DNA of 38,453 bases from an uncultured Agrococcus sp. (GTDB lineage: Bacteria > Actinomycetota > Actinomycetes > Actinomycetales > Microbacteriaceae), in assembly GCF_945915485.1 (NCBI RefSeq), contig NZ_CAMEFJ010000017.1:1-38453 (forward strand), in the 5' to 3' direction. A program made the translations under genes and the position numbers. Positions 11,033 to 34,199 of the stretch are shown here, piece after piece (positions within the stretch are counted from its first letter, which is position 1; each line of letters begins with the position of its first letter). Below the pieces are notes generated by a model, which was not told the origin of the DNA, made no database searches, and was given only the letters and a program-made list of their open reading frames with translations.

Positions 11033-11034
11033 CG

Positions 11035-11670: not shown

Positions 11671-11683
11671 AAGGGGGGCGAGT

Positions 11684-12643
11684 GTGGCTAGCAACGACTG
11701 GATTGACAAGGACTTCTACAAAGTCCTCGGCGTGCCGAAAGACGTCGGCGAGAAGGATCTGAAGAACGCGTATCGCAAGCTCGCTCGCCAGTACCACCCG
11801 GATCAGAACCCCGGCGATACGGCGGCCGAGACGAAGTTCAAGGAGATCAGCGAAGCGAACGCTGTTCTCTCCGACCCCAAGCAACGGCAAGAGTACGATG
11901 CGATTCGGGCGATGGCCGGAGGTCGTCCGCGTTTCGCCCCCGGAACCGGCGGTGCCGGCTTCGAGGACGTGTTCGGGGGCTTCGGGGGAGGCCCGCGGGT
12001 GCAGTACTCGCAGGGCGACTTCGATGATCTACTGGGTGGACTCTTCGGCGGACAGGGCGGGTTCGCGCCACGCGGGGGCGGCTTCGGCGCCCCTCCCAAG
12101 GGCCGGGACATCGCGGCGAACGCATCCCTCGACTTCCGCAGCGCGGTGCAGGGTGACACGCTCAAGCTCACGGTCGGCGGTCGATCGATGAACGTCCGCA
12201 TTCCCGCGGGCGTGCACGACGGTCAGAAGATCAAGATCTCCGGGCGGGGCGAGCCGTCGCCGGCAGGAGGCCCGGCAGGAGACCTCGTGGTGACGGTTTC
12301 CGTTCGATCACATCCCGTCTTCAAACTCGACGGCTTGCATCTGCGCGTGGATGTCCCCGTCAGCTTCTCCGAAGCGGCGCTGGGGGCGACGATAGAAGTC
12401 CCCACGCTCGGTGGTGAGCCCGTGAAACTGAAGGTTCCGGCAGGTACGCCGTCCGGGCGCGTCATGCGCGTGAAGGGCAAAGGTGTGCAGTCGAAGAAAG
12501 GAACGGGCGATCTCCTGGCGGCCGTGCAGGTTGCCGTGCCGACGAACCTGGGCCGGGAGCAGAAGAAACAACTCAAGGCCTTTGCCGATTCGCTCGGCGA
12601 AGAGTCGCCGCGCGAAGACCTCTTGGCGAAAGCGAAGCTATGA
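11684..12643 (+). CDS. DnaJ-family co-chaperone without zinc-finger domain
   Basis: This 319-aa protein has an N-terminal J domain (about 10-75) with HPD at 38-40, a G/F-rich linker (about 84-145, many GGFGG units) and two C-terminal substrate-binding domains. The CxxCxGxG zinc-finger repeats of canonical DnaJ are absent; the protein has no cysteine at all, so it is CbpA-like in layout. It stimulates DnaK ATPase through HPD and delivers substrates. The GTG start at 11684 follows AAGGGGGG. The gene overlaps hspR by ATGA. A second, zinc-containing DnaJ is usual elsewhere in actinobacterial genomes; none is in this window. Confidence 0.95.
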
Positions 12644-13065
12644 GACGCGGCAACCTCGACGATATAGACGAGAACACACCGATCCTGTCGATCGCTGCTG
12701 CAGCGGAACTTGCGGGTATGCACCCGCAGACGCTGCGGCAGTACGACAGGATCGGTCTCGTTGAACCCCGGAGAACCGCCGGCAACACGAGGCGCTATTC
12801 CCTGCGTGATGTCGCTCAATTGCGCGAGGTGCAGGCGCTGTCGGCGGAAGGCGTATCGCTCGAGGGCATCCGGCGAGTGCTGAGTCTCCAAAACGAGAAC
12901 GCTCGCCTGCAGCGGCGCGTTCGTGAACTCGAGGAGCAGCTCGAGCAGTTCGAGTCCGAGAGCCGGCGTGTTTTCGCTGCCGGCGAGCGTGGTGTGACGA
13001 GCATCCGCTTCGGTTCGCGGCCCACGAAATCCAACGCGGTCGTCGTCTGGCGCAAACCACGCTAA
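12640..13065 (+). CDS. Heat-shock repressor HspR (MerR family)
   Basis: This 141-aa MerR-type regulator starts inside the dnaJ stop (ATGA overlap). The HTH and wing (about 14-80) include [18 protein letters not shown] and [13 protein letters not shown] coiled coil rich in E, L and R follows (about 85-112), then a basic tail ending VVWRKPR. HspR binds HAIR inverted repeats and represses the dnaK operon, aided by DnaK; HAIR sites lie at 8952, 9002 and 32503 in this window. It is the last gene of its own regulated operon, so it controls its own level. The 234 bp after it show no clear terminator. Confidence 0.96.
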
Positions 13066-20296: not shown

Positions 20297-21238
20297 ATGA
20301 CCAAAACATCGCTCTCCTCACCGCCGGTCGCAATCGACGATCCGGCAATCGACATCAGCGGGCTCACCCGGCGCTTCGGGCGGGGAGAGCACGTCGTGCG
20401 GGCCGTAGACGGCATCTCCTTACACATACGCAAGGGAGAGATCGTTGCGCTGCTCGGCCCGAACGGGGCAGGCAAGACCACTGCGCTCGACATGCTGTTG
20501 GGGCTCAGCGACCCGAATGAGGGCACACTGAGCGTGCTCGGTATGCATCCGCGCCGTGCCGTAGGCGCAGGACGGATCGCTGCCGTGCTCCAAACCGGCG
20601 GGCTGCTGCCCGATCTCACGGTACGCGAGACCGTCAGCGTTATCGCCGGACTCCACGGGGCGCTGCATCGCGTCGCTCATGTCATGGAACAGGCCGGGCT
20701 CGAGCCCATCGCGGGTCGTCGCATAGGCAAGTGCTCTGGCGGCGAACAGCAGCGCGTCAAGTTCGCGCTCGCGCTCATCCCCGACCCCGACGTGCTCGTT
20801 CTCGACGAGCCGACGGCGGGCATGGACGTCACGGCGCGGCGCCGGTTCTGGGACGTTATGCGCCAGGATGCCGACTCCGGTCGCACGATCCTGTTCGCGA
20901 CCCACTACCTCGAAGAGGCGGAGCAGTTCGCTCGCCGTACGATCGTGCTCGACGAGGGCAAAGTGGTCGCCGATGAACCCACTGCGAAGCTGCGTTCTTC
21001 GCTCGGTGGCCGCACGGTGGCGGCAACACTGCCGCAGAGCGGCGACGCCGACGAGCTCGTCGCGGAGCTGCGCAACGCGTCGGACGCGGAAGAGCTCACA
21101 CTCGACGGCGATCGGTTAACGTTGCGCACCGGTGCTTCCGACGAACTCGCAGCGCGGCTGCTCGCGCTCGGCGCATCCGACCTTGAGATCGCCGCCCCGA
21201 GCCTCGAATCCGCCTTTATGGGCCTCACGAAGGAGTAG
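20297..21238 (+). CDS. ABC transporter ATP-binding protein
   Basis: This 313-aa cytoplasmic ATPase of an ABC-2-type exporter carries Walker A GPNGAGKT (54-61), a CSGGE signature (146-150, with Cys in place of the usual Leu), Walker B LVLDEP (167-172) and the H-loop in ATHYLEEAEQ. The C-terminal 80 residues form the extra domain often seen in drug or antibiotic-peptide exporters. It pairs with the permease 3 bp downstream. The substrate is unknown. Grouping with a DesK/DesR-type system suggests that export is switched on by membrane stress or by the exported compound. Confidence 0.92.
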   Translation: MTKTSLSSPPVAIDDPAIDISGLTRRFGRGEHVVRAVDGISLHIRKGEIVALLGPNGAGKTTALDMLLGLSDPNEGTLSVLGMHPRRAVGAGRIAAVLQTGGLLPDLTVRETVSVIAGLHGALHRVAHVMEQAGLEPIAGRRIGKCSGGEQQRVKFALALIPDPDVLVLDEPTAGMDVTARRRFWDVMRQDADSGRTILFATHYLEEAEQFARRTIVLDEGKVVADEPTAKLRSSLGGRTVAATLPQSGDADELVAELRNASDAEELTLDGDRLTLRTGASDELAARLLALGASDLEIAAPSLESAFMGLTKE

Positions 21239-21241
21239 ACC

Positions 21242-22042
21242 ATGACCACGAAAACCACCGCAGTGCTCCCTGCGCGACCCAAACGCACGCTGTTCGGGCC
21301 GACGCTGTTCAGGATCGAAGCGATTCGCCAGCTGCGCAACCCCTACACGCTCGTCTTCACACTGACGCTGCCGGTCATCATGTATCTGCTGTTCGGCGCG
21401 TTCATGCCCTGGGGCTCCGAGCTGATCGGCAACGGCAACGTCTCGTTCCAGGTCATGGTCTCGATGGCCGGCTTCGGAACGGCAACCGCGATGAGCTCAC
21501 TGTGCTCACTGGCCGCCTCCGAGGTTCGACAGGGATGGGGGCGCCAGATCGCGATGACACCCTTACCGGTCGCAGGTTACGCGTTCACAAAGCTCATGGC
21601 GGCGCTCACGTTCTCCGCGTTCTCCGTGCTCGCCGTCTACATCGCCGGCGCAGCGACAGGCGCCGAGGTCAACGAACTCTGGCGCTGGTTCGCCTGCGCA
21701 GGCATCATCCTGGGCATCGGCGTCATCTTCGGACTGTGGGGAATGGGCGTCGGCATGCTGCTGAACCCGGACTCCGCCGCGGCCCTTGCCTCGATTGCGA
21801 TAACCCTGTTCGGATTCTTCGGGAACGTCTTCATGCCGCTGAGCGGCGCGATGCTCGACATCGCCAGGTTCACGCCGATGTACGGCTACATCGCGCTCGT
21901 GCGGTGGCCGCTCACGGGAGGCGAACTGGGCGACGGGACGAGCGACCCGCTGTGGCTGCCCATCCTGAGCGTCGTTGTCTGGACGGTGCTGTTGTTCGCG
22001 CTCGCCTACGCGGGTGTCGTCCGCTCGCGCCGCCGTGCGTAG
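21242..22042 (+). CDS. ABC-2 type transporter permease
   Basis: This 266-aa membrane protein has six hydrophobic segments. It starts 3 bp after the ATPase stop, so the two are translated together. Its RQLRNPYTLVFTLTLPVIMYLLF N-terminal part and MPLSGAMLDIARFTPMYGY region are typical of ABC-2/DrrB-like exporters. It forms the membrane half of the exporter; two copies probably pair with two ATPases. The sensor kinase gene starts 14 bp downstream. Confidence 0.9.
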   Translation: MTTKTTAVLPARPKRTLFGPTLFRIEAIRQLRNPYTLVFTLTLPVIMYLLFGAFMPWGSELIGNGNVSFQVMVSMAGFGTATAMSSLCSLAASEVRQGWGRQIAMTPLPVAGYAFTKLMAALTFSAFSVLAVYIAGAATGAEVNELWRWFACAGIILGIGVIFGLWGMGVGMLLNPDSAAALASIAITLFGFFGNVFMPLSGAMLDIARFTPMYGYIALVRWPLTGGELGDGTSDPLWLPILSVVVWTVLLFALAYAGVVRSRRRA

Positions 22043-22056
22043 ATAGGCTCGGCACT

Positions 22057-23157
22057 ATGAACAGGGCACCGTCCGCATCGACTCGGAGCGCGAGCCAGAA
22101 GGACCCGTGGGAGCGCTACGGCTGGCTGATGGCGGTCGTGTGGATGGTGTTCCTCGTCTACCCGATCCTGGAACTCGTCAGATCCGCGGCGCCGCTCTGG
22201 TTGCTCGTCCTTGCCTGGGCAGGGCTCGTGGCTTTCGCAGCGGCGTACGTCATCGGCTTCGTCGTCGGTATGCGTTCCGGATGGGGGCGTCCGCCACGGG
22301 CGGTCTTCGTCGCGTTCTTCCTGTTGATGGTCTTCGGAGGCGCGACCCTGCCCGTTCTGGGATGGTATTCGCTCTCGTTCCTGCCCTTCATCATGTCCTA
22401 CGCCGCGTACGGGTTGCGCGGCGCGTGGCACTGGACGACGACGGTCACCTCGGTGGCACTGGCAGGGAGTGCGCTGCTGGCGCTCGGGCCGTCGGGAGGC
22501 GTGCTGCCGATCTTCGCCATCGTCTGCATCCTCGCGGTCGTGAACTCGATCAACACGTGGCTCATCAGCCGCAGCGTGCAGGCCGACAAACTGCGACTCG
22601 ATCTCGCAACGAGTCGTGAGCGCGAAGCCATCGCCCGCGATGTACACGACCTCATAGGGCACACGCTCACGGTCGTCAAACTGAAGTCCGAGCTCGCTGA
22701 GCGACTTGTCGACCGGGATCCGGACGCCGCGAAGCGCGAACTCGAAGCGATCTCGTCGCTGACTGCCGAGGCGATCGCCGGCGTCCGCAGCACGGTCACG
22801 GGGCTGCGCGCATCCGAACTGGATGAGCAGCTGGAAGCCAGCAGAAGCGCCCTGGCCTCCGCAGGGGTCGAGCTGCGCGTCGAAGGTACTCCCGAGGCGA
22901 TGTCTCCCGCGCAGTCGCTCAGCGCGAGCTGGATCGTGCGGGAGGCGGTCACGAACATCCTGCGGCATGCGGGGGCCACGCGGGTGAACATCGAGCTGAA
23001 GCCCGGAACCCTGACGGTCGTCGATGACGGACGCGGTGTCGAGGGACCCGCGGGAAACGGGCTGCGCGGCATGGCCGAGCGGGCATCCGCATCGGGCGCG
23101 GTGCTTGCCGTCGAGGACGGCGCCGACGGCGGTACGGCAGTGAGCGTGAGGTGGTGA
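22057..23157 (+). CDS. Sensor histidine kinase, DesK/NarL-partner type
   Basis: This 366-aa protein has five or six membrane segments in residues 20-170 and a short coiled linker (QADKLRLDLATSREREAIA). A HisKA_3 dimerisation domain with phosphorylatable H197 in RDVHDLIGHTL and a C-terminal HATPase (NGLRGMAERA, DGGTAVSV) follow. There is no large extracellular domain, so it probably senses something within the membrane, as DesK does. The same frame is open 185 codons upstream, but that part is a shadow of the permease gene; the ATG at 22057 starts real kinase sequence. It transfers phosphate to the response regulator 4 bp downstream. Confidence 0.92.
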   Translation: MNRAPSASTRSASQKDPWERYGWLMAVVWMVFLVYPILELVRSAAPLWLLVLAWAGLVAFAAAYVIGFVVGMRSGWGRPPRAVFVAFFLLMVFGGATLPVLGWYSLSFLPFIMSYAAYGLRGAWHWTTTVTSVALAGSALLALGPSGGVLPIFAIVCILAVVNSINTWLISRSVQADKLRLDLATSREREAIARDVHDLIGHTLTVVKLKSELAERLVDRDPDAAKRELEAISSLTAEAIAGVRSTVTGLRASELDEQLEASRSALASAGVELRVEGTPEAMSPAQSLSASWIVREAVTNILRHAGATRVNIELKPGTLTVVDDGRGVEGPAGNGLRGMAERASASGAVLAVEDGADGGTAVSVRW

Positions 23158-23161
23158 CGGT

Positions 23162-23776
23162 ATGAACGACGCCATCCGACTTCTGCTGGCGGATGACCAG
23201 GCGATGGTCAGGGGCGCACTGGGGGCGCTGCTGAATCTGGAACCGGACCTTGTGGTCGTCGGGGAAGCGTCCGATGGTGAATCCGCGATTCGCGAGGCCG
23301 AACGACTGCAACCCGACGTGTGTCTCATGGATATTCAGATGCCGGGCGTGGACGGGCTGGAGGCGACACGGGCGCTGCGAGACGCAAGCGCGCACACTCG
23401 CGTGCTGATCGTCACCACATTTGCCAGACCGGGCTACCTGAAGGCCGCGCTGGATGCGGGCGCGAGCGGATTCGTCGTCAAGGACGCCCCTCCCGATCGG
23501 CTCGCCGACGCTGTGCGGCGGGTGCACAGCGGGATGCACGTCGTCGACCCCGCGCTCGCCGAGGCGACGCTGTTCGAGGGCGAGAATCCGCTCTCGGAAC
23601 GTGAACAGCAGGTGCTGAGGCTCTCGGCCGACGGCAGGCCGGTGGCCGAGATCGCCGCAGAGGTCTTCCTCTCACCCGGAACTGTGCGCAACCATCTGTC
23701 AGCGGCGATCGGCAAGACGGGAGCCGAGAACCGTGCGCAGGCGGCACGTTCGGCGAGCGACAAGGGCTGGATCTAA
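23162..23776 (+). CDS. Response regulator, NarL/LuxR family
   Basis: This 204-aa DNA-binding regulator has a receiver domain (1-120) with acidic pocket DDQ (11-13) and phospho-acceptor D57 in CLMDIQMPG. A GerE/LuxR HTH (about 140-200) includes LSEREQQVLRL and LSPGTVRNHLS. It is the partner of the adjacent DesK-like kinase. The likely target is the operon's own promoter region with the palindrome at 20224-20239. The gene ends 32 bp before the convergent serine hydrolase gene. Confidence 0.92.
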   Translation: MNDAIRLLLADDQAMVRGALGALLNLEPDLVVVGEASDGESAIREAERLQPDVCLMDIQMPGVDGLEATRALRDASAHTRVLIVTTFARPGYLKAALDAGASGFVVKDAPPDRLADAVRRVHSGMHVVDPALAEATLFEGENPLSEREQQVLRLSADGRPVAEIAAEVFLSPGTVRNHLSAAIGKTGAENRAQAARSASDKGWI

Positions 23777-23808: not shown

Positions 23809-25242
23809 TCAGGCCGCCGTGATCTTCAGCGACTGCAGCACGGGAGTCGCGAGGCCCACGAGGCGGATCGTGCATTCCAGGTCGCCGTGCTCACAGGCGA
23901 CGCGCCAACGCAACTCGGCGGCATTCGGTTTCGCCGTGACGCGCTCGGCAAGCGGCGACTGTTTCGCCATGACGGCACCGAACTGCTGCGTGAGCTGCGC
24001 GAGACGCCGGTCCCGCACATCCGCGGGAACATCCGCCAGCAGGTTCTCTGCCGAGAACGCTGCGAGCCCTCCCAGGGATGCCCCGTCGCGCAGCAGCCGG
24101 TCGACGGTCTCCGCTGCCTCGAGGGTTTCCGGCCAGGAATCGACGAGCGCCGGGGGTTCGTCGACAGCGGCCAGGAGGTTGCGCAGTATCTCGGTCGCGC
24201 GCGTCCCGGCCCCGAAGCTGTCGGAGTTTCCGAACACGACAACGCCGACGCCCGAAGCAGCGTGCCAGCGCATGTGCGAGGACCAGCCCGGCAGCCCGCC
24301 CGCGTGCTGGAGAATTCGACCGAAGCGACGGTCCTGCTCGATGACCAGCCCGTAGCCGTACCCGGCCGATTCCAGCTGCTCCGCGCGTTCGGCTGCGACG
24401 GGAGCGGGCGTGAATGCGCTCTGCATTTCGCGCCTTGACTTCGGATGCAGGATGTCGGGATGCTCGGGCCCGGGAGAGAACGCGGAGGCCAGGAAGCGCA
24501 TCCAGCGCCCGATGTCCGCAGCAGAGCTGAACATGCCGCCTATGCAGCCGAAGGCGCCGTGCTCGAGGAGCGGCTCGTGCCGGAACTCGTGACCACCGTC
24601 GAAGCTGCGATATCCCTCGGCGACGGCGGTGCCGCTCGGAAGGTCTGCGACGGCGTAGGCCGTGTGCACGAGCCCGAGGGGTTCGAGGAAGCGTTCGTGC
24701 ACGACCCGTTCGATCGTCTGACCGGTCACGGTTTCGACGATCGCGCCGACCAACGCCATGCCGGTGTTCGAATACTGGTATTCGGAGCCGGGCGGCAGTG
24801 AGAGCGTCAGCCCGGCCGCATGCGCATGCAGCGCGTCTCGTGAGATTGCGAGCTGCCGGTCGGCCCACGCGTTGTCCTCCGGCAGACCGGAGCGATTGGA
24901 CAGCAGCTGCGCGCACGTCACGTCAACGGCTTCGCCGCCCCAGAACAGTCTCGCCTCCGGCAGGTAGTCGTGGATCGGCGCCCGAATATCGAGGCTGCCC
25001 TCGTCTCGCAACGCGAGCACTGCGGCGGCGAGGAAGCTCTTCGACATCGAGGCGATGCGGAAGACCGTTTCGGCGTCCGTCGATGTTCCTGCGCGGGCTT
25101 CGCCGAACGGCCGCGCGATCACATTCCCCGCTCCATCGGTGACAGCGGCGACACCACCGCGGGCGCGCCTGCGCACCTCGGCAGGCAACGCCTTCGCTAT
25201 CGAGCGCCGCGCGATCGCTTCGAAGCTCTCGCGGTCAGGCAC
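23809..25242 (-). CDS. Serine hydrolase, beta-lactamase/class C-like family
   Basis: This 477-aa protein of the AmpC/esterase/D-aminopeptidase superfamily has nucleophile motif SMSK (65-68), the tyrosine motif YSN in EYQYSNTG, and HAGG late in the domain in place of KTG. About 130 C-terminal residues form an extra domain of the kind seen in D-aminopeptidase-like proteins. No signal peptide is present, so it is cytoplasmic, which argues against a beta-lactam resistance role and for hydrolysis of peptides or esters. It is the last gene of the minus-strand peptide operon. Its GTG start overlaps the stop of the amidotransferase gene by 8 bp. Confidence 0.85.
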   Translation of the reverse strand: MPDRESFEAIARRSIAKALPAEVRRRARGGVAAVTDGAGNVIARPFGEARAGTSTDAETVFRIASMSKSFLAAAVLALRDEGSLDIRAPIHDYLPEARLFWGGEAVDVTCAQLLSNRSGLPEDNAWADRQLAISRDALHAHAAGLTLSLPPGSEYQYSNTGMALVGAIVETVTGQTIERVVHERFLEPLGLVHTAYAVADLPSGTAVAEGYRSFDGGHEFRHEPLLEHGAFGCIGGMFSSAADIGRWMRFLASAFSPGPEHPDILHPKSRREMQSAFTPAPVAAERAEQLESAGYGYGLVIEQDRRFGRILQHAGGLPGWSSHMRWHAASGVGVVVFGNSDSFGAGTRATEILRNLLAAVDEPPALVDSWPETLEAAETVDRLLRDGASLGGLAAFSAENLLADVPADVRDRRLAQLTQQFGAVMAKQSPLAERVTAKPNAAELRWRVACEHGDLECTIRLVGLATPVLQSLKITAA

Positions 25243-25936
25243 CCCGTACCTCGGCTGCGAACGCGCGGATCATGCCCTCGGCGGCTTTCGTGTTCGCCTC
25301 GTCGTTCTCCTCCGCGCGCGCGAGGATCGCCGGGTAGTCATCGGCTGCGGCCTGACGCTCCGGGCTCCAGTTCCTGATGTTCTCGACGCTCGATTCCGGG
25401 TGGAACTGCAGCCCGCGAACGCGCAGTCCGATCCTGAACGCTTGATTCTCGATCAGTTCGCTCGAGGCCAGCAGCTGCGCGCCGTCGGGGAGGCGGGTGA
25501 TCATGTCGCGGTGATTCTGAATCATCGGTGCGCCGCTGCCCAGCTGCCCGAGCACGGGGTCGGCGAGCCCGGCATCCGTCGTCGTGATCATGTAGGAGCC
25601 GCGCTCCGGCGGCCCGAAGTTCTCGCGCACCTCGCCTCCCGCGACGTCGGCGATGAGCTGCCCGCCCAGGCAGATGCCGAGGGTCGGGAAGTCGGCGTCG
25701 ATCGCCTGCTGTGCGAGTTCGCGCTCGGGGCGCAGCCACGGAGCCTTGTCGAACGCGTCGGGCATGAGCCCGCCGCCCAGCAGTACCATGCCCGCAAAGC
25801 CGTCGAGCGAGCCCGGCAGGCCGTCTTTGCCTTCGACGACGACGGGTTCGATGCCCTCTTCCTCCAGCCAGGTCGCGAGTCGGCGCGGACCGCCGCCCTC
25901 CCAGTTGATGATGACGAGTACGCGGGGCTTGGTCAC
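25235..25936 (-). CDS. Class I glutamine amidotransferase-like protein
   Basis: This 233-aa protein has the GATase1 fold with nucleophile C89 in GICLGGQL and catalytic His in GLQFHPESS. The GTG start at 25936 has AAGGAG five bases upstream and overlaps the dipeptidase stop as GTGA. The frame remains open far upstream, but that part is a shadow of the dipeptidase gene. Stand-alone members split glutamine or gamma-glutamyl compounds; the partner synthetase is not in the window. In this operon it may remove gamma-glutamyl groups from peptide or amine intermediates, an inference from context. Confidence 0.87.
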   Translation of the reverse strand: MTKPRVLVIINWEGGGPRRLATWLEEEGIEPVVVEGKDGLPGSLDGFAGMVLLGGGLMPDAFDKAPWLRPERELAQQAIDADFPTLGICLGGQLIADVAGGEVRENFGPPERGSYMITTTDAGLADPVLGQLGSGAPMIQNHRDMITRLPDGAQLLASSELIENQAFRIGLRVRGLQFHPESSVENIRNWSPERQAAADDYPAILARAEENDEANTKAAEGMIRAFAAEVRGA

Positions 25937-27024
25937 GGTGTCTCCTTCAGCGTCGCAGTGTCGATTGCCGGTCGCAGTGCGGTCGGGCGCGGGGCGGGAG
26001 CCGCTCCCGCCATGAATGCGCGGTAGTCGTCGTCGCTCGCCTCGAGCGTCCGCAGGATGTTCTCGTGCGCGAGCAGCGCGAGCTCGCTCTCCGACCATCC
26101 GCGCCCGCGCAGTTCCTGCAGGAGTCGCGGATACCCGGCGACATCCTCCAGGCCGGAGGGCATCGCGTCGGTGCCGTCGTAGTCGGCGCCGATACCGACC
26201 GCCTGCACGCCGGCGACATCGCGGATGTGCTCGATGTGGTCGGCGACGTCGGCCACCGTCACCTCCGGTGCCTCGCCCTTCGCCCCCGCAAGAACCCAAT
26301 CGCGACGCGACTGCGATACGAAGCTCGGCACGAAGGCGACCATGACGAGGCCGCCTCCGCGGCCGATCGACTCGATGACATCGTCGGGGACATTGCGTGG
26401 ATGATCGCACAGGGCGAGCGCGCAGGAGTGCGTCACGACGACGGGCCTGGTCGAAGTTTCGAGCGCATCCCGCATCGTGTCCGGCGATACGTGCGCAAGG
26501 TCGAGAAGCACGCCGATGCGGTTCATCTCCCGGACGACTTCGCGACCGAAGTCGCTCAGCCCGCCGTGACGTGAGTCGTCGGTTGCGGAATCGGCCCAGT
26601 CGGTTGTGCGCGACCAGGTCAGCGTCATGTAGCGGGCTCCGAGTCGCGCGTACTGACGCAGCGCGGCGAGCGACCCGCCGATCTGCGCTCCTCCCTCGAT
26701 GCCGATGAGCGAAGCGACTTTCCCGTCCTGCATCGCTGTACGGGTGTCCGCTGCCGTCGTCGCGAATCGAAGGTCCTCGGGATAGGTGTCGATGAACCGG
26801 TGCACGAAGTCGATCTGTTCGAGGGTTGCCGTCACCTGGTCTGCTCCCTGCAGTACCGAGTCGACCCACACCGACCAGAACTGCCCGCCGACACCGCCGG
26901 AGCGCAGGCGATCGACCGAGGTGTGCAGCCCATCGATCGGCAGCTCGAGCCCCGCCGTCGAATAGCCCAGGTGCTTGCGGCTCGCCCATGCGAGATCGTT
27001 ATGGCCGTCGATGACGGGGATCAC
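25933..27024 (-). CDS. Membrane dipeptidase-type metallopeptidase (M19)
   Basis: This 363-aa zinc dipeptidase of the renal-dipeptidase family has metal ligands readable as H8 and D10 in DGHND, E110 in GIEGG, H178 in LAHVS and H199 in VTHS, with D281 in GADYDG. M19 enzymes cleave dipeptides and often accept a D-residue at the C-terminal side, such as L-Ala-D-Glu-like or L,D-dipeptides. No signal peptide or anchor is present, so it is cytoplasmic. The GTG start overlaps the stop of the enolase-superfamily gene as GTGA. Substrate specificity is inferred from family and neighbours. Confidence 0.92.
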   Translation of the reverse strand: MIPVIDGHNDLAWASRKHLGYSTAGLELPIDGLHTSVDRLRSGGVGGQFWSVWVDSVLQGADQVTATLEQIDFVHRFIDTYPEDLRFATTAADTRTAMQDGKVASLIGIEGGAQIGGSLAALRQYARLGARYMTLTWSRTTDWADSATDDSRHGGLSDFGREVVREMNRIGVLLDLAHVSPDTMRDALETSTRPVVVTHSCALALCDHPRNVPDDVIESIGRGGGLVMVAFVPSFVSQSRRDWVLAGAKGEAPEVTVADVADHIEHIRDVAGVQAVGIGADYDGTDAMPSGLEDVAGYPRLLQELRGRGWSESELALLAHENILRTLEASDDDYRAFMAGAAPAPRPTALRPAIDTATLKETP

Positions 27025-28157
27025 AGTGTTGCCTCCTGCGCAGCGCGATGCTGTTCGTGGGTTCTTGCGGCGTGCTCGCGGATCCAGTCATCGCGCACCT
27101 CGTGGCCGATACCCGGCCCATCGGGTACGCGCACGACGCCGTCGTTCGCGATGACCGCGGGAGCGATCACGTCTTCCGCGTAGTACTTGTCGGAGCCCGA
27201 TACGTCGGAGGGGAGTGTGAAACCCGGCAGCGACGAGATCGCGACGTTCGCTGCCCGACCGATCCCGAACTCGTGCATTCCGCCGCACCAGGCCGGAATG
27301 CCGCCGTCGACCGCTGCATCGTGAGCGAGTTTCGCGGCCGTCAGACCGCCCATCCGCGAAACCTTGATGTTGACGACGCGGGCGGCATCCAGCCGCAGCA
27401 TCGTGTGGATGTCGTCGACGTGCACGATCGACTCGTCGAGACAGATCGGAGTGCTGACGCGTTGCTGAAGCCGCGCGTGGCCCACGAAGTCGCGAGCGGC
27501 GAACGGCTGCTCGAACATCGTGAGTTCAGCGGCGTCGAGTCTGGCGAACATCGTGAGGCTCGCTTCGCCGGCTTCGAAGGCGGCGTTCGCGTCGACGTGC
27601 AGCAGGAGCTTCGGGAATGCGGCGCGCACGGCCAGCACGGGTTCGACATCCCAGCCCGGTGCGATTTTCAGTTTGACGCGACGGTAGCCGGCATCGACCT
27701 GTCGCTGTACCTGCTCGAGCAGTTCATCGATCGTCGGTTCTATTCCGAGCGAGACGCCCGCGACGACCTCAGTCCGCGCGCCTCCGAGCGTCTGCGAAAG
27801 CGAAACGCCGCGGGCGCGGGACGCGAGATCCCAGGCCGCTATCGAAAAACCCGACTTCGCGAACTCGTGGCCCCGGACGCGGGCCCACGCTTGTTCGAGC
27901 GCCTCCGGGCTCTCCGCATCCGCCGAGAGCAGCTCGGGGGTGAGGTATCGCGTCGCGACACCCCAGGCGGTCTCGACGGTGTCAGCGCTGAAGAACGGAT
28001 GCGTCGGTGACGCGATCTCGCCCCACCCGACACGACCCTCCGCGTCGGTGAGCTCCACGAGAATGTGCGTCAGCCCCGACTTGCGGTGCGAACTCGTTTC
28101 AAAACTGTGGACGAGCGGCAGGCTCAGCTCGTACAGGCGCACTCGATCGATGCGCAT
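27021..28157 (-). CDS. Enolase-superfamily N-acylamino-acid racemase / o-succinylbenzoate synthase-like
   Basis: This 378-aa protein is of the MenC type 2/NSAR group in the muconate-lactonising subgroup. All catalytic positions are present: KxK (K162 and K164), metal ligands D189, E216 and D241, and K265 in NIKVSRMGG. The family includes o-succinylbenzoate synthases and racemases of N-succinyl amino acids, often with both activities. No menaquinone genes lie nearby; a GNAT acyltransferase and a dipeptidase do, which favours racemisation of N-acyl amino acids. The ATG at 28157 overlaps the stop of the SIS gene by one base (TGATG). Confidence 0.88.
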   Translation of the reverse strand: MRIDRVRLYELSLPLVHSFETSSHRKSGLTHILVELTDAEGRVGWGEIASPTHPFFSADTVETAWGVATRYLTPELLSADAESPEALEQAWARVRGHEFAKSGFSIAAWDLASRARGVSLSQTLGGARTEVVAGVSLGIEPTIDELLEQVQRQVDAGYRRVKLKIAPGWDVEPVLAVRAAFPKLLLHVDANAAFEAGEASLTMFARLDAAELTMFEQPFAARDFVGHARLQQRVSTPICLDESIVHVDDIHTMLRLDAARVVNIKVSRMGGLTAAKLAHDAAVDGGIPAWCGGMHEFGIGRAANVAISSLPGFTLPSDVSGSDKYYAEDVIAPAVIANDGVVRVPDGPGIGHEVRDDWIREHAARTHEQHRAAQEATL

Positions 28158-28825
28158 CAACCACGCTCCCGTTCTGATTCCGGCAGGTAGGTGTCGAGCT
28201 GCTCCGAAATCTGGTCCCGCAGCGCGAGTCGCCGCCTGGCGCCCTTCGCGCTCGCGGTCGTCAGCGTGCTCAACAGATGACAGACGGCGACGGTCGCGGT
28301 TGGCGAGTCAGCGTACGAGGCCGAACCAGTGCGCACTTTGATGCGGCAGGTCGCGATATCGGCAAGGGGCGCAGACTCGTCGTCCGTGACAACGATGAGC
28401 TGACCGCCGGCCTCGTGGAAGAGCTGCCCTATGCGCACGGATTCGCGGCGATAGCGACGCATCGAGAACACGACGAGGACGTCGGTCGGCCGGACGTCGG
28501 ACAGCACCGCGAGCTCGTCGAGACTCTTACCGTCGATCAGGAAGACATTCGAGAGCGTTGCGCCGAGGTCGGCCGTCAGTAACTGCGCGTACGCCGCCGA
28601 CTTGCCCTCGCCGAGAATGAACCGACGGCGAGCACCGAGGATGAGCGCCGCGCCGCGCGGGACATCGCCGGAGTCCTCCAACTCTTCGAGCGTCTCGGCG
28701 AGAGAGCGCGTTTCCGACTCGATAACCCGACGCTGGATGATCTCGGCCGAGACGTTCTTGCGGAAGCGTGCGTTGAATCGATCCCGGGGGGAGTCAAGCG
28801 AACGATCGTGTTCAGTTTCGCTCAT
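28157..28825 (-). CDS. SIS-domain protein, RpiR-like without HTH
   Basis: This 222-aa protein contains a SIS sugar-isomerase fold (about 65-195; GEGKSAAYAQ, DVLVVFSMRRY, LIVVTDDESAPLA). This is the ligand-binding half of MurR/RpiR regulators. The usual N-terminal HTH of about 75 residues is absent; only a helical lead of some 60 residues (RNVIESETRS-like linker, as SAEIIQRRVIESETRS) precedes the SIS domain. It may be an isomerase, a sugar-phosphate binding protein or a regulator acting without its own DNA-binding domain. The ATG overlaps the GNAT stop as ATGA. Confidence 0.78.
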   Translation of the reverse strand: MSETEHDRSLDSPRDRFNARFRKNVSAEIIQRRVIESETRSLAETLEELEDSGDVPRGAALILGARRRFILGEGKSAAYAQLLTADLGATLSNVFLIDGKSLDELAVLSDVRPTDVLVVFSMRRYRRESVRIGQLFHEAGGQLIVVTDDESAPLADIATCRIKVRTGSASYADSPTATVAVCHLLSTLTTASAKGARRRLALRDQISEQLDTYLPESERERG

Positions 28826-29631
28826 GAGTGTTCCTGTTCTCTTCCAAGGGACTCTCTCGGTACTGCAAGATATGCGGCGGTATCGTCGCTGACGAGCGAA
28901 CAGCCGATCAGCGCACGCCGCTGATCGAACGTCGCCCGCAGCGTCTCGGCGATGAGCTCGCTGACGCGGGAACGAACTTCGGCGGGAACCGTCGTCGAGT
29001 CCGCCGGCAGCGGTATCCATGTGTCATTGTCGTCTCCGGCGACGGCCGTGCCCCAGCGAGAGCGGCCGAGTGTCGGAGGCGGGGTCGGTTTCGGGCGTCG
29101 CTCGCGGCTCGCATCCGCCGGCAACCGCCAGTTGACGAGAATTCGGTCGCTCTCCGGCCGCTCGAAGTAGCGGGGCAGGAACCCGACGCCCACGGCCTGG
29201 AGCGAGTCGAGGTTGAAGTGCGCGTTCCTGACCAGTAGCGGATCAAAGGTCCAGCGCATTTCGCGGTGCCCGGCGCGGGCCGCGTCCTCGGCCTGCAGAT
29301 ACTTCAACGCACGACCGAGGCCCCTTCCCTGCTGCCGTTCATCGACGACGGCCGCTTGTGAAAAATGAAACGGCTGCCCATCGTCGAGCCCGGCGAAACC
29401 GTAAGCGTAGCCGACGAGTTCGCGGAGTTCGTTGAAGACGCCGACGGATGACCCACCGTGGTGGCAGAGCGAGCTCAACAGGTTCGGGTTCAGGGAGAAC
29501 GCGGGGTCTTCGTAGCCGAACACTCGGCGGTAGAGTGCGTCGGCCTCCCGCAGGCCATCCGGATCACTCAGGCGCGCCGATGAGTACCCTTGGGGCAGCA
29601 GTGATTCTGCACGGAGCGACGTTGCTTGCAT
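28822..29631 (-). CDS. GNAT-family acyltransferase
   Basis: This 269-aa protein belongs to the COG3375-like GNAT group. The acyl-CoA binding loop is QQGRGLGRA (100-108), after a strand reading FHFSQAAVVDE. WTFDPLLVRNAHFNL matches the conserved region that follows in that group. The frame is open to 29742, but the ATG at 29631 has AGGA upstream and begins recognisable sequence. Relatives next to N-succinylamino-acid racemase genes succinylate D-amino acids in a D-to-L conversion pathway. It is the first gene of the minus-strand peptide operon. The substrate is inferred from context. Confidence 0.8.
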   Translation of the reverse strand: MQATSLRAESLLPQGYSSARLSDPDGLREADALYRRVFGYEDPAFSLNPNLLSSLCHHGGSSVGVFNELRELVGYAYGFAGLDDGQPFHFSQAAVVDERQQGRGLGRALKYLQAEDAARAGHREMRWTFDPLLVRNAHFNLDSLQAVGVGFLPRYFERPESDRILVNWRLPADASRERRPKPTPPPTLGRSRWGTAVAGDDNDTWIPLPADSTTVPAEVRSRVSELIAETLRATFDQRRALIGCSLVSDDTAAYLAVPRESLGREQEHS

Positions 29632-29874
29632 AGCGCGATTCCTAGTGAGAGGGCCCAACTTTTTTGACGGCCGGTGTAAAGCGTGTTCGGTCAGAAACAT
29701 AGCATGAGATACGTCACGGATTCTGCCCCCATCGTAATACAATTGCCGACTTTACTGCCGATTCTAAGGCGATTGGGCCCCGTGTCAGGCTGTAGATACG
29801 ATTCAAATGATTGCAATTCGTGACACTTTGGTGTTGCATGGCACTACCCCGCAAGATTCGATGGAGAGCCGTAT
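29632..29874. promoter_or_regulatory. Divergent promoter region of the peptide-salvage cluster
   Basis: This 243-bp gap separates the GNAT gene (minus) and the LD-carboxypeptidase gene (plus). It is visibly richer in A and T than its surroundings, especially 29690-29850, as expected for two promoters. A direct repeat TGCCGA occurs at 29744-29749 and 29756-29761, 12 bp apart, about one helical turn. No -35/-10 pair stands out. No operator can be assigned. Confidence 0.45.
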
Positions 29875-30825
29875 ATGAACCCGTCCGACGCGTATCTCGA
29901 CAGTGCTCCTCTGCAGCCGGGTGACACGGTCGCCTTCGTGTCTCCCGCAGGGCAGTGCAGCGCGGAGGCCCTGGAGCGCGGAAAGTCGTACTACGAGCAG
30001 TGGGGACTGCACGTGGTCGTCGGACGACACGCGCTCGCGAAACATCCCCGTGCCGACTATCTGGCCGGCACCGACGACCAACGACGTGCAGACCTCGTTG
30101 AAGCGTGGTTGAACCCCGAAATCGATGCGGTTGTCAGCACGCGCGGCGGGTACGGCTCGCTCAGACTGCTCGACGGCATCGACTGGGCAGCGATGCGAGC
30201 GGCGGCGACGCGACGCGACGGCAGGCCGAAGCTCTTAACCGGGTCTTCTGACATCACGGCGCTGCACGAGGCGTTTCGCGCGCACCTGGATGTGCCGACC
30301 CTGTTCTGCCCCATGGCGACGAACGACGTGTTCGGCAAGTCGGCCATCATCAGGGAGGACGTGCGCAGGTGGCTGCTGCAACCGTGGCGAGGGCAGAGTC
30401 TCGTCGGCCCCGCAACGGAAATCCTCGCTCAGGGCACGGCGAGAGGGCGGTTCACGGGCGGCAACCTCAGCCTTTTGGCGAGCGCGTTGGGTACCGCAGA
30501 CGCCCGGCAGCGGCCCGAGGGCATCCTGTTCCTCGAGGATGTCACCGAGAAGCCCTACCGAATCGACAATTTCCTGACGCAGTTGCGCAGAGCCGGATAC
30601 TTCGACGGTCTCGCGGGTATCGTGCTGGGGTCATGGCACGATTCCGGAGACCTCAGTGCTGTGCGAGCTCTCATGGAAGACGAATTCGGCGATGCGGGCA
30701 TTCCGGTGCTCTGGGAGCAGGGGTTCGGCCACGACCCCGACGCGATCTCGGTGCCGCTGGGTGTCGAAGGACTGTTGGATGCGACCGGTCGTGAGCCGGT
30801 TCTGACCGTAACGGGGAGCGCATGA
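29875..30825 (+). CDS. LD-carboxypeptidase (S66 family, LdcA/MccF-like)
   Basis: This 316-aa serine peptidase has the S66 triad readable as S125 in TGSSDITAL, E221 in LFLEDV and H286 in GFGHDPDA. RGGYGSLRLLDGIDW (90-104) is the conserved N-domain motif. LdcA enzymes remove the terminal D-alanine from cytoplasmic murein tetrapeptides; MccF-type relatives cut acyl-adenylate antibiotics. The ATG at 29875 follows GGAGAG. No signal peptide, so it is cytoplasmic. It is the first gene of the plus-strand arm and overlaps the next gene by ATGA. Murein-peptide recycling is favoured by the neighbours. Confidence 0.93.
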   Translation: MNPSDAYLDSAPLQPGDTVAFVSPAGQCSAEALERGKSYYEQWGLHVVVGRHALAKHPRADYLAGTDDQRRADLVEAWLNPEIDAVVSTRGGYGSLRLLDGIDWAAMRAAATRRDGRPKLLTGSSDITALHEAFRAHLDVPTLFCPMATNDVFGKSAIIREDVRRWLLQPWRGQSLVGPATEILAQGTARGRFTGGNLSLLASALGTADARQRPEGILFLEDVTEKPYRIDNFLTQLRRAGYFDGLAGIVLGSWHDSGDLSAVRALMEDEFGDAGIPVLWEQGFGHDPDAISVPLGVEGLLDATGREPVLTVTGSA

Positions 30826-31646
30826 AACCACCGGAGCTCGACCAGCGCGCGAAATGGAGCATACGGGTCGTGGATGCCGACTCGGGCGAAGAGCTGCTTG
30901 CCCACGAACCCGACGTTGTGTGCGAGACCGCGAGCATAGGCAAGGTCTTCCTGCTGCTCGAGGTCGCGCAGAGACTCGAAGACGGTCGATTCTCGCCCGA
31001 CGATCGAATTCGCATAGAAGACGAGCACCGGGTCGAGGACTCTGGGCTGCTCTACCGGATGCGCGATCAGCGGGTCACGGTAGAAGACGCGGCCCTCCTG
31101 GTCGGCGCCGTGAGCGACAACCTTGCGACCAATGCGCTCATCGCGATGTGCGGCCTCGATACTGTGCGCGCCGTCGCGAAGAACCTCGGCCTCGAGCGAA
31201 CGGAGCTGCACGATTTCATCAGGGACGCTCGGTTGCCGGGCATGCCGTGGACGCCGTCGTTCGGCACCGCACGGGAGCTCGCCGACGTCATGCGGCGGCT
31301 CGCTCGTCGCGAACTGGGCTCACCGGCCGTGAGCGAACGGGTGCTCGGGTGGCTGGCAGCGGATACGGACACGTCGATGCTCGCCGACGCGTTCCTGCTG
31401 GACCCGCTGGCCCACGCCGAGCCCGAGTACCAAGGCATCGAGCTTCACCATAAGACCGGCAGCACCTCGTTCGCCCGCATCGACATAGGTCATGTCCGCG
31501 GACCCTCGGGTGCGGTCGCGTACGCGGTCGCCGCGAACTGGCGAGACTCCGACGTCGATCTGCGGGCTCCCGTCATCGACGCGATGCGCGAGATCGGAGA
31601 AGAGATCCGCTCCCGGATAACGGGGCAGGAAAGGAGTGCCCAGTGA
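30822..31646 (+). CDS. Class-A beta-lactamase-like serine hydrolase 1 (cytoplasmic)
   Basis: This 274-aa protein has the class A order of motifs: SIGK (38-41), SDN (98-100) and KTG (211-213). The omega-loop ExxLN that supplies the deacylating glutamate of true class A beta-lactamases is not visible; the corresponding region reads DARLPGMPWTPS. No signal peptide is present. It is therefore more likely a cytoplasmic peptidase or amidase than an antibiotic-resistance enzyme. The start overlaps the LD-carboxypeptidase stop (ATGA) and its stop overlaps the start of its paralogue (GTGA). Confidence 0.85.
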   Translation: MKPPELDQRAKWSIRVVDADSGEELLAHEPDVVCETASIGKVFLLLEVAQRLEDGRFSPDDRIRIEDEHRVEDSGLLYRMRDQRVTVEDAALLVGAVSDNLATNALIAMCGLDTVRAVAKNLGLERTELHDFIRDARLPGMPWTPSFGTARELADVMRRLARRELGSPAVSERVLGWLAADTDTSMLADAFLLDPLAHAEPEYQGIELHHKTGSTSFARIDIGHVRGPSGAVAYAVAANWRDSDVDLRAPVIDAMREIGEEIRSRITGQERSAQ

Positions 31647-32443
31647 GTATCGAGTTCCCGGAGCACGACGGCATCCGATGGTCGGTGCTGGTGCAGGATG
31701 CCGACACCGGCGAGACGCTGCTGGGCGAACGGCAGGAGCAAGTGCTGAACACAGCATCCATCGGCAAGCTCTTCCTGCTGCACCGCTTGCTCGTCGACGT
31801 CGACGAGGGGTCGCGTCGGCTCGAAGACACTGCGACGCGGCTGCCGCACGAGATGATCGGCGCTTCGGGGCTCTGGTCGCGCATGCAGGCGGACACGTTC
31901 TCGCTGTACGATCTCGGGCTCTTGATCGGCGCCGTGAGTGACAACGACGCGACGAACGTGCTGGGCAGAGTCGTCGGCATGGAGCGGGTGCGGCAACATG
32001 CGCTCGATCTCGGTTTCGAGCATACGAGGCTCAACGACATCGTGCGGTGGCCCATCCCGCCCGGGTATCCGAAACGGCTCTCGGAGGGCAATGCGAGCGA
32101 GCTTGTGCGGCTCGCCAGGATGATCGCGGACGGCGACGGGCTCAGTGAAAGCAGCCGCGATACCCTGGCCAGGTGGCTCGCGGCGGGAACAGACCACTCG
32201 ATGGTCGCGCAGCCCTTCAACTTCGACCCGCTCGATCACGACTTCTTCGATCGAGGCGTCTGGCTCTGGAGCAAGACGGGCACGCTGCGATCGGTGCGCG
32301 GCGACGTCGGCATCGTGATGACAGGAGAGCGACGCGTCGCCTACGCCGTGCTGGCGCAGTGGGAGCAGGGTAAGGACCCGCGGGATGCCGTCCTCGCGAC
32401 GATGGCAGAAGTCGGCGAGTTGATTCATCGCGCCCTCGCGTAA
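31643..32443 (+). CDS. Class-A beta-lactamase-like serine hydrolase 2 (cytoplasmic)
   Basis: This 266-aa paralogue of the preceding gene is equally without a signal peptide. Motifs are SIGK (39-42), SDN (99-101) and KTG (211-213); again no ExxLN is seen (region RWPIPPGYPKR). GTG start at 31643. Shared stretches such as TASIGK, LIGAVSDN and the KTG region point to tandem duplication, though overall similarity looks moderate, so the two may differ in substrate. It is the last gene of the plus-strand arm, 59 bp before the hsp20 operator. Confidence 0.84.
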   Translation: MSIEFPEHDGIRWSVLVQDADTGETLLGERQEQVLNTASIGKLFLLHRLLVDVDEGSRRLEDTATRLPHEMIGASGLWSRMQADTFSLYDLGLLIGAVSDNDATNVLGRVVGMERVRQHALDLGFEHTRLNDIVRWPIPPGYPKRLSEGNASELVRLARMIADGDGLSESSRDTLARWLAAGTDHSMVAQPFNFDPLDHDFFDRGVWLWSKTGTLRSVRGDVGIVMTGERRVAYAVLAQWEQGKDPRDAVLATMAEVGELIHRALA

Positions 32444-33301: not shown

Positions 33302-33437
33302 GGCTTTCTGAACGCCCGATCTACATTCACGCGCCGTCACCTCCGAGTAATCTCGCGTCTCGGACCAGCGGTCTCTTCCGTTCTCGTTAGGCATGTCACG
33401 CCCCGAGGCGCTCCGAACATCGACTCTGGAGCGCACA

Positions 33438-34199
33438 ATGCGTCGTTCACAACACGGCGGCCGGCACGAACTCGGCCAGAATTTCCTCACCCACAAACCC
33501 ACCGTCAATCGAATCGCCACGGTCGTGGCAAGCACGTCCGGATCCATCCTCGAGATCGGCGCAGGCGGTGGTGCGCTGACGGGATCACTCGCTCGGCTCG
33601 GACGCCCGCTCACGGCGATCGATATCGACGAGCACCGCGTCGGACGGCTGCGACGTCGACTGCGCAACGTTGAAATCCTGCGAGCCGACGCAATGCGGCA
33701 TCCGTTGGATGCGAACGTCGTGGTCGGCAATATTCCCTTCCACATCACGACGCCGCTGCTCCGGCGCCTGCTGCGACAGCGCTCCTGGCGCTCGGCAGTC
33801 TTGCTGACGCAGTGGGAAGTGGCCAGAAAGCGAGCCGGTGTGGGCGGCTCGACCATGATGAGCGCTCAGGCTGCTCCATGGTTCGAGTTCTCGCTGGAGA
33901 TGCGCGTTCCCGCGTGGGCATTCACTCCCAGGCCCAGCGTCGACGGAGGAGTACTCCGTATTGATCGCCGCGCAACCCCGCTCATTCCTCCGTCGCAGCG
34001 AGGGGCCTACGAAGCCTTCGTGAAGACCGTTTTCACGGGACGAGGCGGCTCGCTCGCGGCCACCGTCGGCGGCGCCGCCCGAGTGCCGACGAAGGGCGCG
34101 AAACGGGCGCTGCGGGATGCCGGGGTGCGCGGCGAAGCTCGCCCGCGCGATCTAGCGCCCGAGCACTGGGCACAGCTCTGGCAGCGAGTGCAGCGTTAA
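33438..34199 (+). CDS. 23S rRNA adenine-N6 methyltransferase, Erm family
   Basis: This 253-aa rRNA methyltransferase starts with HELGQNFL (10-17), the Erm/KsgA N-terminal signature. It has SAM motif I EIGAGGG (39-45) and catalytic motif IV NIPF (98-101), which binds the target adenine. The C-terminal part is basic. Erm enzymes methylate A2058 of 23S rRNA and give resistance to macrolides, lincosamides and streptogramin B; KsgA-type housekeeping enzymes are less likely given the N-terminus and length. The ATG at 33438 has GGAG six bases upstream; an alternative ATG lies at 33393. The stop shares TTAA with the convergent gene. It is probably an intrinsic resistance gene of the erm(37)/ermE-like actinobacterial kind. 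Confidence 0.86.
   Translation: MRRSQHGGRHELGQNFLTHKPTVNRIATVVASTSGSILEIGAGGGALTGSLARLGRPLTAIDIDEHRVGRLRRRLRNVEILRADAMRHPLDANVVVGNIPFHITTPLLRRLLRQRSWRSAVLLTQWEVARKRAGVGGSTMMSAQAAPWFEFSLEMRVPAWAFTPRPSVDGGVLRIDRRATPLIPPSQRGAYEAFVKTVFTGRGGSLAATVGGAARVPTKGAKRALRDAGVRGEARPRDLAPEHWAQLWQRVQR

Follow-up and report, generated by a model that had tools for sequence, protein, structure and literature searches.

Six overlapping genes on the minus strand of a 38,453-nucleotide stretch from an uncultured Agrococcus sp. (the window, meaning the whole stretch that was analysed; contig C17 of the 2.81-Mb assembly G000, which consists of 170 contigs and is 86% complete) encode a GNAT-type acyltransferase, a SIS protein, a racemase of the N-succinylamino-acid racemase (NSAR)/o-succinylbenzoate synthase (OSBS) subgroup, an M19 dipeptidase, a class-I glutamine amidotransferase (GATase)-like protein and an S12 serine hydrolase. 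We consider it likely that this locus is part of a scattered, operator-controlled regulon for D-peptide catabolism, with the SIS protein as its sensor. Judged by comparison with relatives, the six-gene order appears to be a rearranged piece of that larger regulon. The GNAT-racemase core recurs in eleven actinobacterial families, a palindromic operator stands in pairs before the GNAT gene and, on another contig, before the gene for an M20 deacylase, and the operator accompanies the SIS gene rather than the enzymes.

Organisation of the locus

The features of the locus are as follows.

28822..29631, minus strand: GNAT-type N-acyltransferase, predicted to open the route by acylating a D-amino acid (homology to a second GNAT, structure model, neighbourhood)
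28157..28825, minus strand: SIS protein, RpiR-derived, without helix-turn-helix (HTH); proposed sensor/regulator (PF01380, 55.1 bits)
27021..28160, minus strand: NSAR/OSBS-subgroup racemase of a distinct clade (TSSHRK 20s loop, NIKVSR, GGMHEFG; TIGR01928, MR_MLE C and N domains)
25933..27024, minus strand: M19 dipeptidase (Peptidase_M19, 367 bits; metal-ligand motifs; top solved match 3id7)
25235..25936, minus strand: class-I glutamine-amidotransferase-like hydrolase (GATase, 63.9 bits; C, H, E triad intact)
23809..25242, minus strand: S12-family serine hydrolase (Beta-lactamase, 180.6 bits; top solved match alkaline D-peptidase)
29875..30825, plus strand: S66 LD-carboxypeptidase of the divergent arm (PF02016, PF17676)
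30822..31646, plus strand: class-A-like serine hydrolase BLA1 (PF13354, 142.2 bits; N-terminus without evident signal peptide)
31643..32443, plus strand: class-A-like serine hydrolase BLA2, of the BLA1 family (PF13354, 108.7 bits)
29792..29812, no strand: first operator-like palindrome, in the divergent promoter (out-of-family matrix 16.5 bits, full matrix 19.2 bits; top site in 38 kb)
29705..29725, no strand: second operator-like palindrome, at a distance of 87 bp from the first (out-of-family matrix 12.4 bits, full matrix only 6.0-6.6 bits)

The six minus-strand open reading frames (23809-29631) are collinear and their codon-position GC is of the coding type. Their successive overlaps of 8, 4, 4, 1 and 4 nt bear out the tight 1-8 nt overlapping of the original prediction, and the 1-nt overlap becomes 4 nt when the racemase starts at TTG 28160. 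After a gap of 243 bp, the plus strand carries the LD-carboxypeptidase gene and two genes for Beta-lactamase2-type hydrolases, each overlapping by 4 nt. Judged by eye, none of the nine N-termini has an evident signal peptide.

The window GNAT has no Pfam or NCBIfam match. It carries QQGRGLG, its predicted structure is a confident alpha/beta model (pLDDT 92.4), and it shares 32% identity with the GNAT from another NSAR operon of this genome, whose own Pfam GNAT match is weak (E 0.0095). The motifs of the M19 enzyme, the C, H and E of the GATase-like protein, the SxxK, YxN and HxG of the S12 hydrolase, and the SxxK, SDN and KTG sets of both Beta-lactamase2 proteins are intact; we take these to have their customary catalytic meaning. 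The solved structure nearest to the dipeptidase, 3id7, is presumably that of Sco3058, an L-Xaa-D-Xaa dipeptidase. The GATase-like protein is possibly a gamma-glutamyl hydrolase.

Elsewhere in the window, an Erm-type 23S rRNA methyltransferase gene (33393-34199, plus strand; NF000499, 240.4 bits, cutoff 212) lies two genes past BLA2, an ABC plus two-component-like block (20297-23776) adjoins the end of the operon, and a dnaK-grpE-dnaJ-hspR-like run, judged by eye, occupies 9179-13065 (plus strand).

A paired operator before unlinked genes

Relatives were collected by a contig scan that gave 259 racemase relatives, and the counts of named loci given here and below refer to the best 80 of these 259. 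Comparison of promoters yielded the palindrome GATACGnnnCGTATC, from which a symmetric 21-bp matrix gives nAnGATACGnnnCGTATCnTn. With at most two mismatches, GATACGnnnCGTATC occurs in 63 of 77 divergent regions, which include genomes sampled twice (e.g. L049/L051, L050/L052, L040/L100, L045/L084), against about 1.2 of 77 in dinucleotide shuffles.

The full matrix was trained on the GNAT regions of loci with SIS, the genus being left out when scoring, and the regions before the gene of the importer's substrate-binding protein (SBP) stayed outside the training. At 13 bits or more it finds 142 sites in all 80 loci (1,561,626 positions), of which 140 fall in the 350 bp before GNAT, M20 or SBP; the other two precede a C39 gene (L055) and a C1 peptidase gene (L064). 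An operator site precedes 23 of the 28 cluster SBPs. A second, out-of-family matrix was trained on 25 loci of other families and tested on 37 Microbacteriaceae loci (709,504 positions), where it gave 104 sites of at least 12 bits: 63 before GNAT or M20, 37 before SBP, two before C39, C1 or LD-carboxypeptidase genes, and two elsewhere. Loci without a family name were dropped from this training, as were L060 and L080, because they nest among Microbacteriaceae in the racemase tree, and L067, L081, L083 and L094, because they belong to the same genera. In the window, the sites at 29792 and 29705 are the two best of 38 kb by this matrix, the third best reaching 6.3 bits.

The operator also stands before unlinked genes. 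In Agrococcus casei, contig C41, apart from the GNAT locus, holds the run SBP-permease-permease-ATPase-LD-carboxypeptidase-BLA1-BLA2 with a 19.7-bit site before SBP, so that LD-carboxypeptidase and importer stand together under the operator, as expected of murein salvage. With at most one mismatch, the pattern occurs at two places in the 2.8-Mb A. casei genome, the GNAT-locus and SBP promoters, and its reversed control at one. The same search of the window genome gave seven places, none in the window, and the control gave three, so that the simple pattern does not suffice for specificity there.

Sites of at least 8 bits are paired within 260 bp in 56 of the 80 loci. Spacings up to 120 bp fall at 53-54, 64-66, 75-77, 85-89 and 107-112 bp, with a period of 10.9 bp and a mean resultant length of 0.844 that none of 20,000 uniform random sets reaches. 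This test took a single value per genus, chosen by hand, under 19 labels of which two are loci lacking a genus name. It left out pairs beyond 120 bp (132, 141-144, 196-202) and entered Agrococcus as 76, from A. casei, in place of the window's 87, whose second site has 6.6 bits. With the threshold loosened to 5 bits, spacings of 14, 23, 97 and 104 also turn up. Whole-turn spacing is the usual sign of a multimer holding two sites on one DNA face, so one multimeric regulator probably controls these promoters.

Two further points concern other NSAR operons. A canonical-type operon on contig C18 of the window genome was considered as a member of the regulon and rejected: its best site has 6.8 bits, and its TetR-like gene is preceded by a palindrome of its own, GATACAnnnTGTATC. 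For this operon (G000:C18, L163:5442-15750; genes for SBP, permease, ATPases, S9 peptidase, M20, GNAT and NSAR), the palindrome before the nearby TetR-like gene was also recorded as GATACAGTCTGTATC, different from the operator. Among twelve canonical NSAR loci, L152 has an 11.6-bit site, and the other 11, all short stretches, reach at most 5.9 bits.

In the open-licence literature, searched by title and abstract opening, we found no description of this cluster and nothing on a paired phased operator or its tie to an HTH-less SIS protein; articles matching the operator string appeared unrelated by title. Within that literature, the operator pair and its link to the SIS protein appear to be the new part.

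The SIS protein as candidate regulator

The SIS domain is of the RpiR type: besides the PF01380 match, the top solved match of its profile is the RpiR regulator 3sho, and MurR chains rank fourth and fifth of six. The RpiR phosphate-binding loop, as given in PMC12713135, is Ser-x-Ser-x-x-Thr. In the window protein the corresponding residues, aligned by eye, are SMRRYR, of which R124 and Y125 do not vary among 35 sequences, and hence the effector is probably not a phosphosugar. Two distant members, from L101 and L117, have a 60-residue N-terminal extension that matches the HTHs of full RpiR proteins over 53 columns (hhalign probability 75; maximum of 30 shuffles 2.5); this extension contains no Pfam domain and scores 5.0 and 0.9 bits with a small RpiR-HTH profile. 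Taken together, these comparisons indicate that the SIS protein, which lacks both the HTH and the phosphate loop of RpiR-type regulators, descends from them.

The link between SIS and operator rests on their joint occurrence. GATACGnnnCGTATC is present in 57 of 66 named loci with SIS in the locus versus 2 of 12 without it (Fisher p 3.7e-6, kinship ignored, two loci without GNAT set aside). Presence of the operator at the GNAT promoter agrees with presence of SIS in the genome in 77 of 78 loci, with L054 and L055 counted as having SIS and with an 8-bit threshold that was chosen after the scores were known (weakest locus with SIS 8.5 bits, strongest without 7.1). Ten loci have no nearby SIS and fall below the threshold (L098, L104, L107, L114, L116, L118, L124, L127, L128 and L130); a genome-wide search found no SIS in nine of these genomes and one elsewhere in the tenth, that of L116. 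L124, L127 and L128 keep M20 and have neither SIS nor operator. In two Leifsonia loci with operator and no SIS nearby, the SIS gene lies elsewhere in the genome, behind BLA1-BLA2 on the other arm, and the operator has stayed in place.

The reverse situation is seen in two settings. L042 and L043 retain SIS and operator (22.0 and 25.7 bits), and GNAT, racemase and M20 are gone from the locus. In Nesterenkonia ebinurensis, the locus L116 has GNAT and racemase alone, with no operator in the GNAT promoter, and an intact 223-aa SIS frame lies at L180:7048-10879 in a hydantoinase/hydantoin-racemase-type cluster. This cluster encodes an ApbA-like reductase, a cyclic amidohydrolase nearest D-hydantoinase (TIGR02033, 219.3 bits, below the 393 cutoff) and, divergently, an Asp/Glu/hydantoin racemase (PF01177, 138.3 bits), with a carbon-nitrogen hydrolase further off. 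The gap between amidohydrolase and racemase genes holds sites of 25.0 and 12.0 bits, 75 bp apart, which are the top two of 14 kb. From these two settings, the operator pair goes with SIS and not with the enzymes. The GNAT-racemase and hydantoinase-type routes would both include N-substituted amino acids (N-acyl, N-carbamoyl), a possible hint at the effector.

The opposing explanation, which we regard as unlikely though not negligible, is that an unrelated, unlinked transcription factor reads the operator and that SIS is an enzyme or metabolic modulator travelling with it. Several observations favour this explanation and count against a regulatory SIS: a Pfam scan found neither HTH_6 nor another DNA-binding domain in the window SIS; the tree shows only three independent losses, all concordant, with a sign-test p of 0.25 computed before the L116 correction; and 9 of the 66 loci with SIS match the simple consensus only at 3-4 mismatches. 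The agreement count is also tempered by L098 (7.1 bits) and L128 (4.4 bits), which have no SIS and still exceed the 95th percentile of random windows (0.23 bits), a control that itself contains some true sites. Set against the unlinked factor are the Leifsonia rearrangements, the three loci that keep M20 and lack both partners, the persistence of SIS and operator in L042/L043 and their joint presence in the unrelated hydantoinase-type cluster, and the lack of any other regulator-like gene in the core. The possibility that the common reader is an RpiR-type HTH protein was also considered and is excluded in G085, as far as a 97%-complete genome shows: this genome has operator and SIS, and no HTH_6 match at E 0.01.

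The SIS protein is thus the best candidate for the regulator of the paired operator, or for its sensing subunit. A bolder proposal, to which we give slightly less than an even chance, is that SIS proteins without HTH and phosphate loop regulate amino-acid inversion regulons in many Actinomycetes, sense an N-substituted amino acid and clamp phased GATACGnnnCGTATC pairs. In this proposal the ligand would take the place of the phosphosugar, perhaps as an N-acyl compound here and an N-carbamoyl compound in the hydantoinase-type cluster. A more distant SIS group (40% identical) occurs in L046-L048 near an S12 hydrolase and without racemase; no palindrome of the operator kind was found in the gap before these SIS genes, and the operator statistics do not include this group.

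M20 deacylase and importer on other contigs

As originally predicted, there is no M20 gene in the window locus, and the locus of genome G003, 91% identical to the window's, has none either. The best match in the window genome to the M20 of the A. casei cluster is G000:C80:6441-7505 (64% identical), the runner-up being the M20 of the C18 operon (39%). Contig C80 also carries a peptide ABC importer (SBP, two permeases, two ATPases) and a VanY carboxypeptidase (PF02557, 139 bits), and contig C51 of G003 has M20, a VanY-like gene (by resemblance) and ATPase genes in the same order. Operator sites stand before both M20 genes, of 16.2 and 9.7 bits on C80 and of 13.8 and 13.0 bits in G003; a further C80 site (10.4 bits) lies inside the SBP gene. 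The spacing of the pair is 76 bp on C80, 75 in G003, 76 in A. casei and 87 in the window.

On this evidence the M20 enzyme appears to have been displaced, not replaced. The idea that the M19, GATase-like or S12 enzyme substitutes for the deacylase draws on the lack of M20 in the window and G003 loci, and we now hold it to be very improbable: a cluster-type M20 preceded by operator sites is present on other contigs of both genomes, and relatives hold M19, GATase and S12 alongside M20. The GNAT-next-to-racemase arrangement and the C80 M20, identified by best match and of predicted L-specificity, are together as expected of the NSAR pathway.

Gene content in relatives

GNAT stands beside the racemase in 78 of the 80 loci, the exceptions being L123, which is cut by the contig end, and L067, in which no GNAT was found. 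SIS and M20 each occur in 68, M20 being on the strand opposite to GNAT in 66. The LD-carboxypeptidase is found in 24, many loci being cut by the 10-kb flanks, and SBP in 28. The GNAT-racemase core occurs in eleven named actinobacterial families, in ten of them with SIS. Both arms are longer in many Microbacteriaceae: SBP, permeases, ATPase, LD-carboxypeptidase and BLA follow on the M20 side, and the racemase side continues with a variable set drawn from M19, GATase, S12 and a class-IV aminotransferase or DadA-like oxidoreductase.

L042 and L043 also retain M19, GATase, the importer, BLA and a DadA-like gene, and their genomes gave no racemase match at E 1e-20. This loss fits a module that disposes of the freed D-amino acid, a job that oxidation could take over.

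Other arrangements were noted. Seven loci, L098, L104, L107, L116, L118 and L130 (Nesterenkonia) and L114 (Microlunatus), have GNAT and racemase in a locus without SIS, M20 or operator, and such pairs appear to be a minimal two-gene form under other control. In Saccharopolyspora and Haloactinopolyspora, genes for an ion/carboxylate-type carrier and an Amidohydro_3 enzyme come after the core, and Kribbella has genes of matching size there (stretches L103:11116-14126, L088:11122-14105 and L112:11116-15000); the carrier and Amidohydro_3 pair is possibly an N-acyl-D-amino-acid deacylase with its transporter. A folate-type reading was set aside because the gene that suggested it, for a PabC-like aminotransferase adjoining the racemase of some relatives (NF005888, 275.3 bits, cutoff 273), is absent from the window.

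The racemase

The window racemase matches TIGR01928, an OSBS-named model, with 264.8 bits (cutoff 200.65), and the solved chains closest to it are NSARs. The KxK motif, the D-E-D set and the second catalytic lysine of the NSAR subgroup are present: K162, K164, D189, E216, D241, K265 and R268 are invariant in all 11 aligned sequences, the window's included. An OSBS of menaquinone synthesis, as the NCBIfam name of the model would have it, is extremely improbable: the genome has its own actinobacterial menC (NF002782, 389.2 bits) together with menB, menA and menD on contig C31, and the OSBS reading falls for this reason. The window racemase is thus neither the sole OSBS candidate of the genome nor linked to men genes, and the preference of the original prediction for NSAR, which a genome missing menC would have overturned, stands.

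The racemase alignment has its best named matches in Candidatus Agrococcus pullicola (92% identity) and A. casei (73%). The C18 operon of the same genome (ABC importer, S9 peptidase, M20, GNAT, NSAR) encodes a second racemase, 42% identical to the first. In a class-level sample of 394 genomes, 18, including the window's, score 534-687 bits for the racemase and the others at most 390.2; in a phylum-level sample of 396, two lie beyond E 1e-125, the window's own among them.

A tree of 78 rows, made by a quick method with a long outgroup, separates 62 window-type from 15 canonical racemases by a branch with 99% support, the groups being defined by the presence of TSSH. In window-type enzymes the 20s loop is TSSHxK, and NIK-V/A/I-SR and GGMHEFG are almost constant; the canonical counterparts are TSFG, NIKPGR-like and GGMLETG. 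This contrast is partly by construction, because the canonical set was defined by lacking TSSH. By tree and motifs, the window racemase belongs to a clade distinct from the canonical NSARs, and its basic 20s loop suggests an acidic substrate. The racemases of L060 (Gordonia amarae) and L080 (Acidipropionibacterium sp.) nest among those of Microbacteriaceae, and the L060 locus is of the Microbacteriaceae type; horizontal transfer is likely.

Proposed route and its substrate

Gene families, racemase residues and neighbourhoods support the view, already taken from the window by the original prediction, of a GNAT plus NSAR-type D-to-L module with adjoining L,D-peptide hydrolases. The route that we propose, including its substrates, acyl donor and reaction directions, would run as follows. 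D-residue-rich peptides, most plausibly murein stem peptides, would enter through the SBP5-type ABC importer encoded on C80 and be trimmed to free amino acids by the cytoplasmic LD-carboxypeptidase, the serine hydrolases, the GATase-like gamma-glutamyl-type hydrolase and the M19 dipeptidase. The GNAT would then N-acylate the released D-amino acid, the racemase would equilibrate the N-acyl-D and N-acyl-L forms, and the C80-encoded M20 would cleave the N-acyl-L form, making the inversion one-way. A natural candidate for the substrate is D-Glu, released from L-Ala-D-Glu or Gly-D-Glu. Paired operators at the promoters of the module, of the relatives' importer and of the displaced M20 would place these genes under one multimeric regulator, presumably acting through the SIS protein. 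Whereas the genes, their phased operators and the accompaniment by SIS can be read from the sequence, these enzymatic and regulatory actions are what we infer from them.

Murein is the presumed source of the peptides. A competing view, that what the module handles is free D-amino acids or D-residue peptides of another kind (aged protein, antibiotics, dipeptides), is a substantial possibility though not the one we favour. It is suggested by several genera outside Microbacteriaceae, in which the core is followed by carrier and Amidohydro_3 genes and neither LD-carboxypeptidase nor importer was detected in the locus, and by the limited occurrence of LD-carboxypeptidase and SBP among the 80 loci. 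The clustering of LD-carboxypeptidase, M19 and penicillin-binding-protein-like hydrolases with the module in Microbacteriaceae, the VanY gene near the displaced M20 and the importer under the same operator speak against it and for murein peptides.

Some findings temper the regulon interpretation as a whole. The C80 importer has only 33% identity to the cluster SBP of a relative and is possibly no orthologue, its promoter falls off the contig end, and the window assembly is 86% complete. The cluster is present in only 2 of 23 sampled congeners. M19 (31/80), S12 (30/80) and GATase (16/80) are each missing in many loci that have the core, which means that not every relative has the peptide part.

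Comparison with known systems

The N-succinylamino-acid racemase pathway was reportedly described in Geobacillus kaustophilus by Sakai et al. in 2006. The present system shares with it a GNAT, an NSAR-subgroup racemase and an M20 hydrolase, and a copy of that type is on C18; it differs in the racemase clade with TSSHxK 20s loop, in the SIS partner and operator pair, in a divergent or displaced M20, and in the joining of M19, LD-carboxypeptidase, importer and other hydrolases. Murein peptide salvage is represented by ykfABCD of Bacillus subtilis and LdcA/YcjG of Escherichia coli. These systems likewise bring together an LD-carboxypeptidase, an enolase-superfamily isomerase and a peptide importer, but there the epimerase acts on the dipeptide, whereas here the dipeptidase would act first, followed by acylation and inversion of the free D-amino acid.

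The acylating enzyme of the DgcN-DgcA pathway differs from the GNAT type. As described in PMC12363236 and PMC10845958, that pathway handles D-glutamate and resembles the present one in taking a D-amino acid to its L-form through a dedicated racemase. The window racemase scores weakly on the DgcA model NF042940 (85.5 bits against a cutoff of 400). With the RpiR regulators MurR and NanR, as described in the preprint PMC12713135, the SIS protein has in common the SIS domain, and the paired palindromes would fit a tetramer bridging two sites; L101 and L117 keep an HTH-like N-terminus. It differs from them in having no HTH and in reading SMRRYR in place of the phosphate loop.

Significance

An NSAR-type pathway is already known, and what is described here is apparently a variant with SIS protein, operator and peptide hydrolases. 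The analysis ties the previously unassigned GNAT-racemase core of eleven named actinobacterial families to a regulon with a readable operator, by which unlinked genes become assignable, such as the displaced M20, the A. casei importer and the Nesterenkonia hydantoinase-type cluster. It suggests a logic for the salvage of D-residues in which hydrolysis comes first and the free D-amino acid is then inverted by acylation, racemisation and deacylation. The SIS protein, to which the earlier reading assigned no role, turns out to be the most informative member of the locus. Should it bind the operator, it would count among DNA-binding regulators despite having no recognised DNA-binding domain, and its SIS fold would sense a non-sugar ligand.

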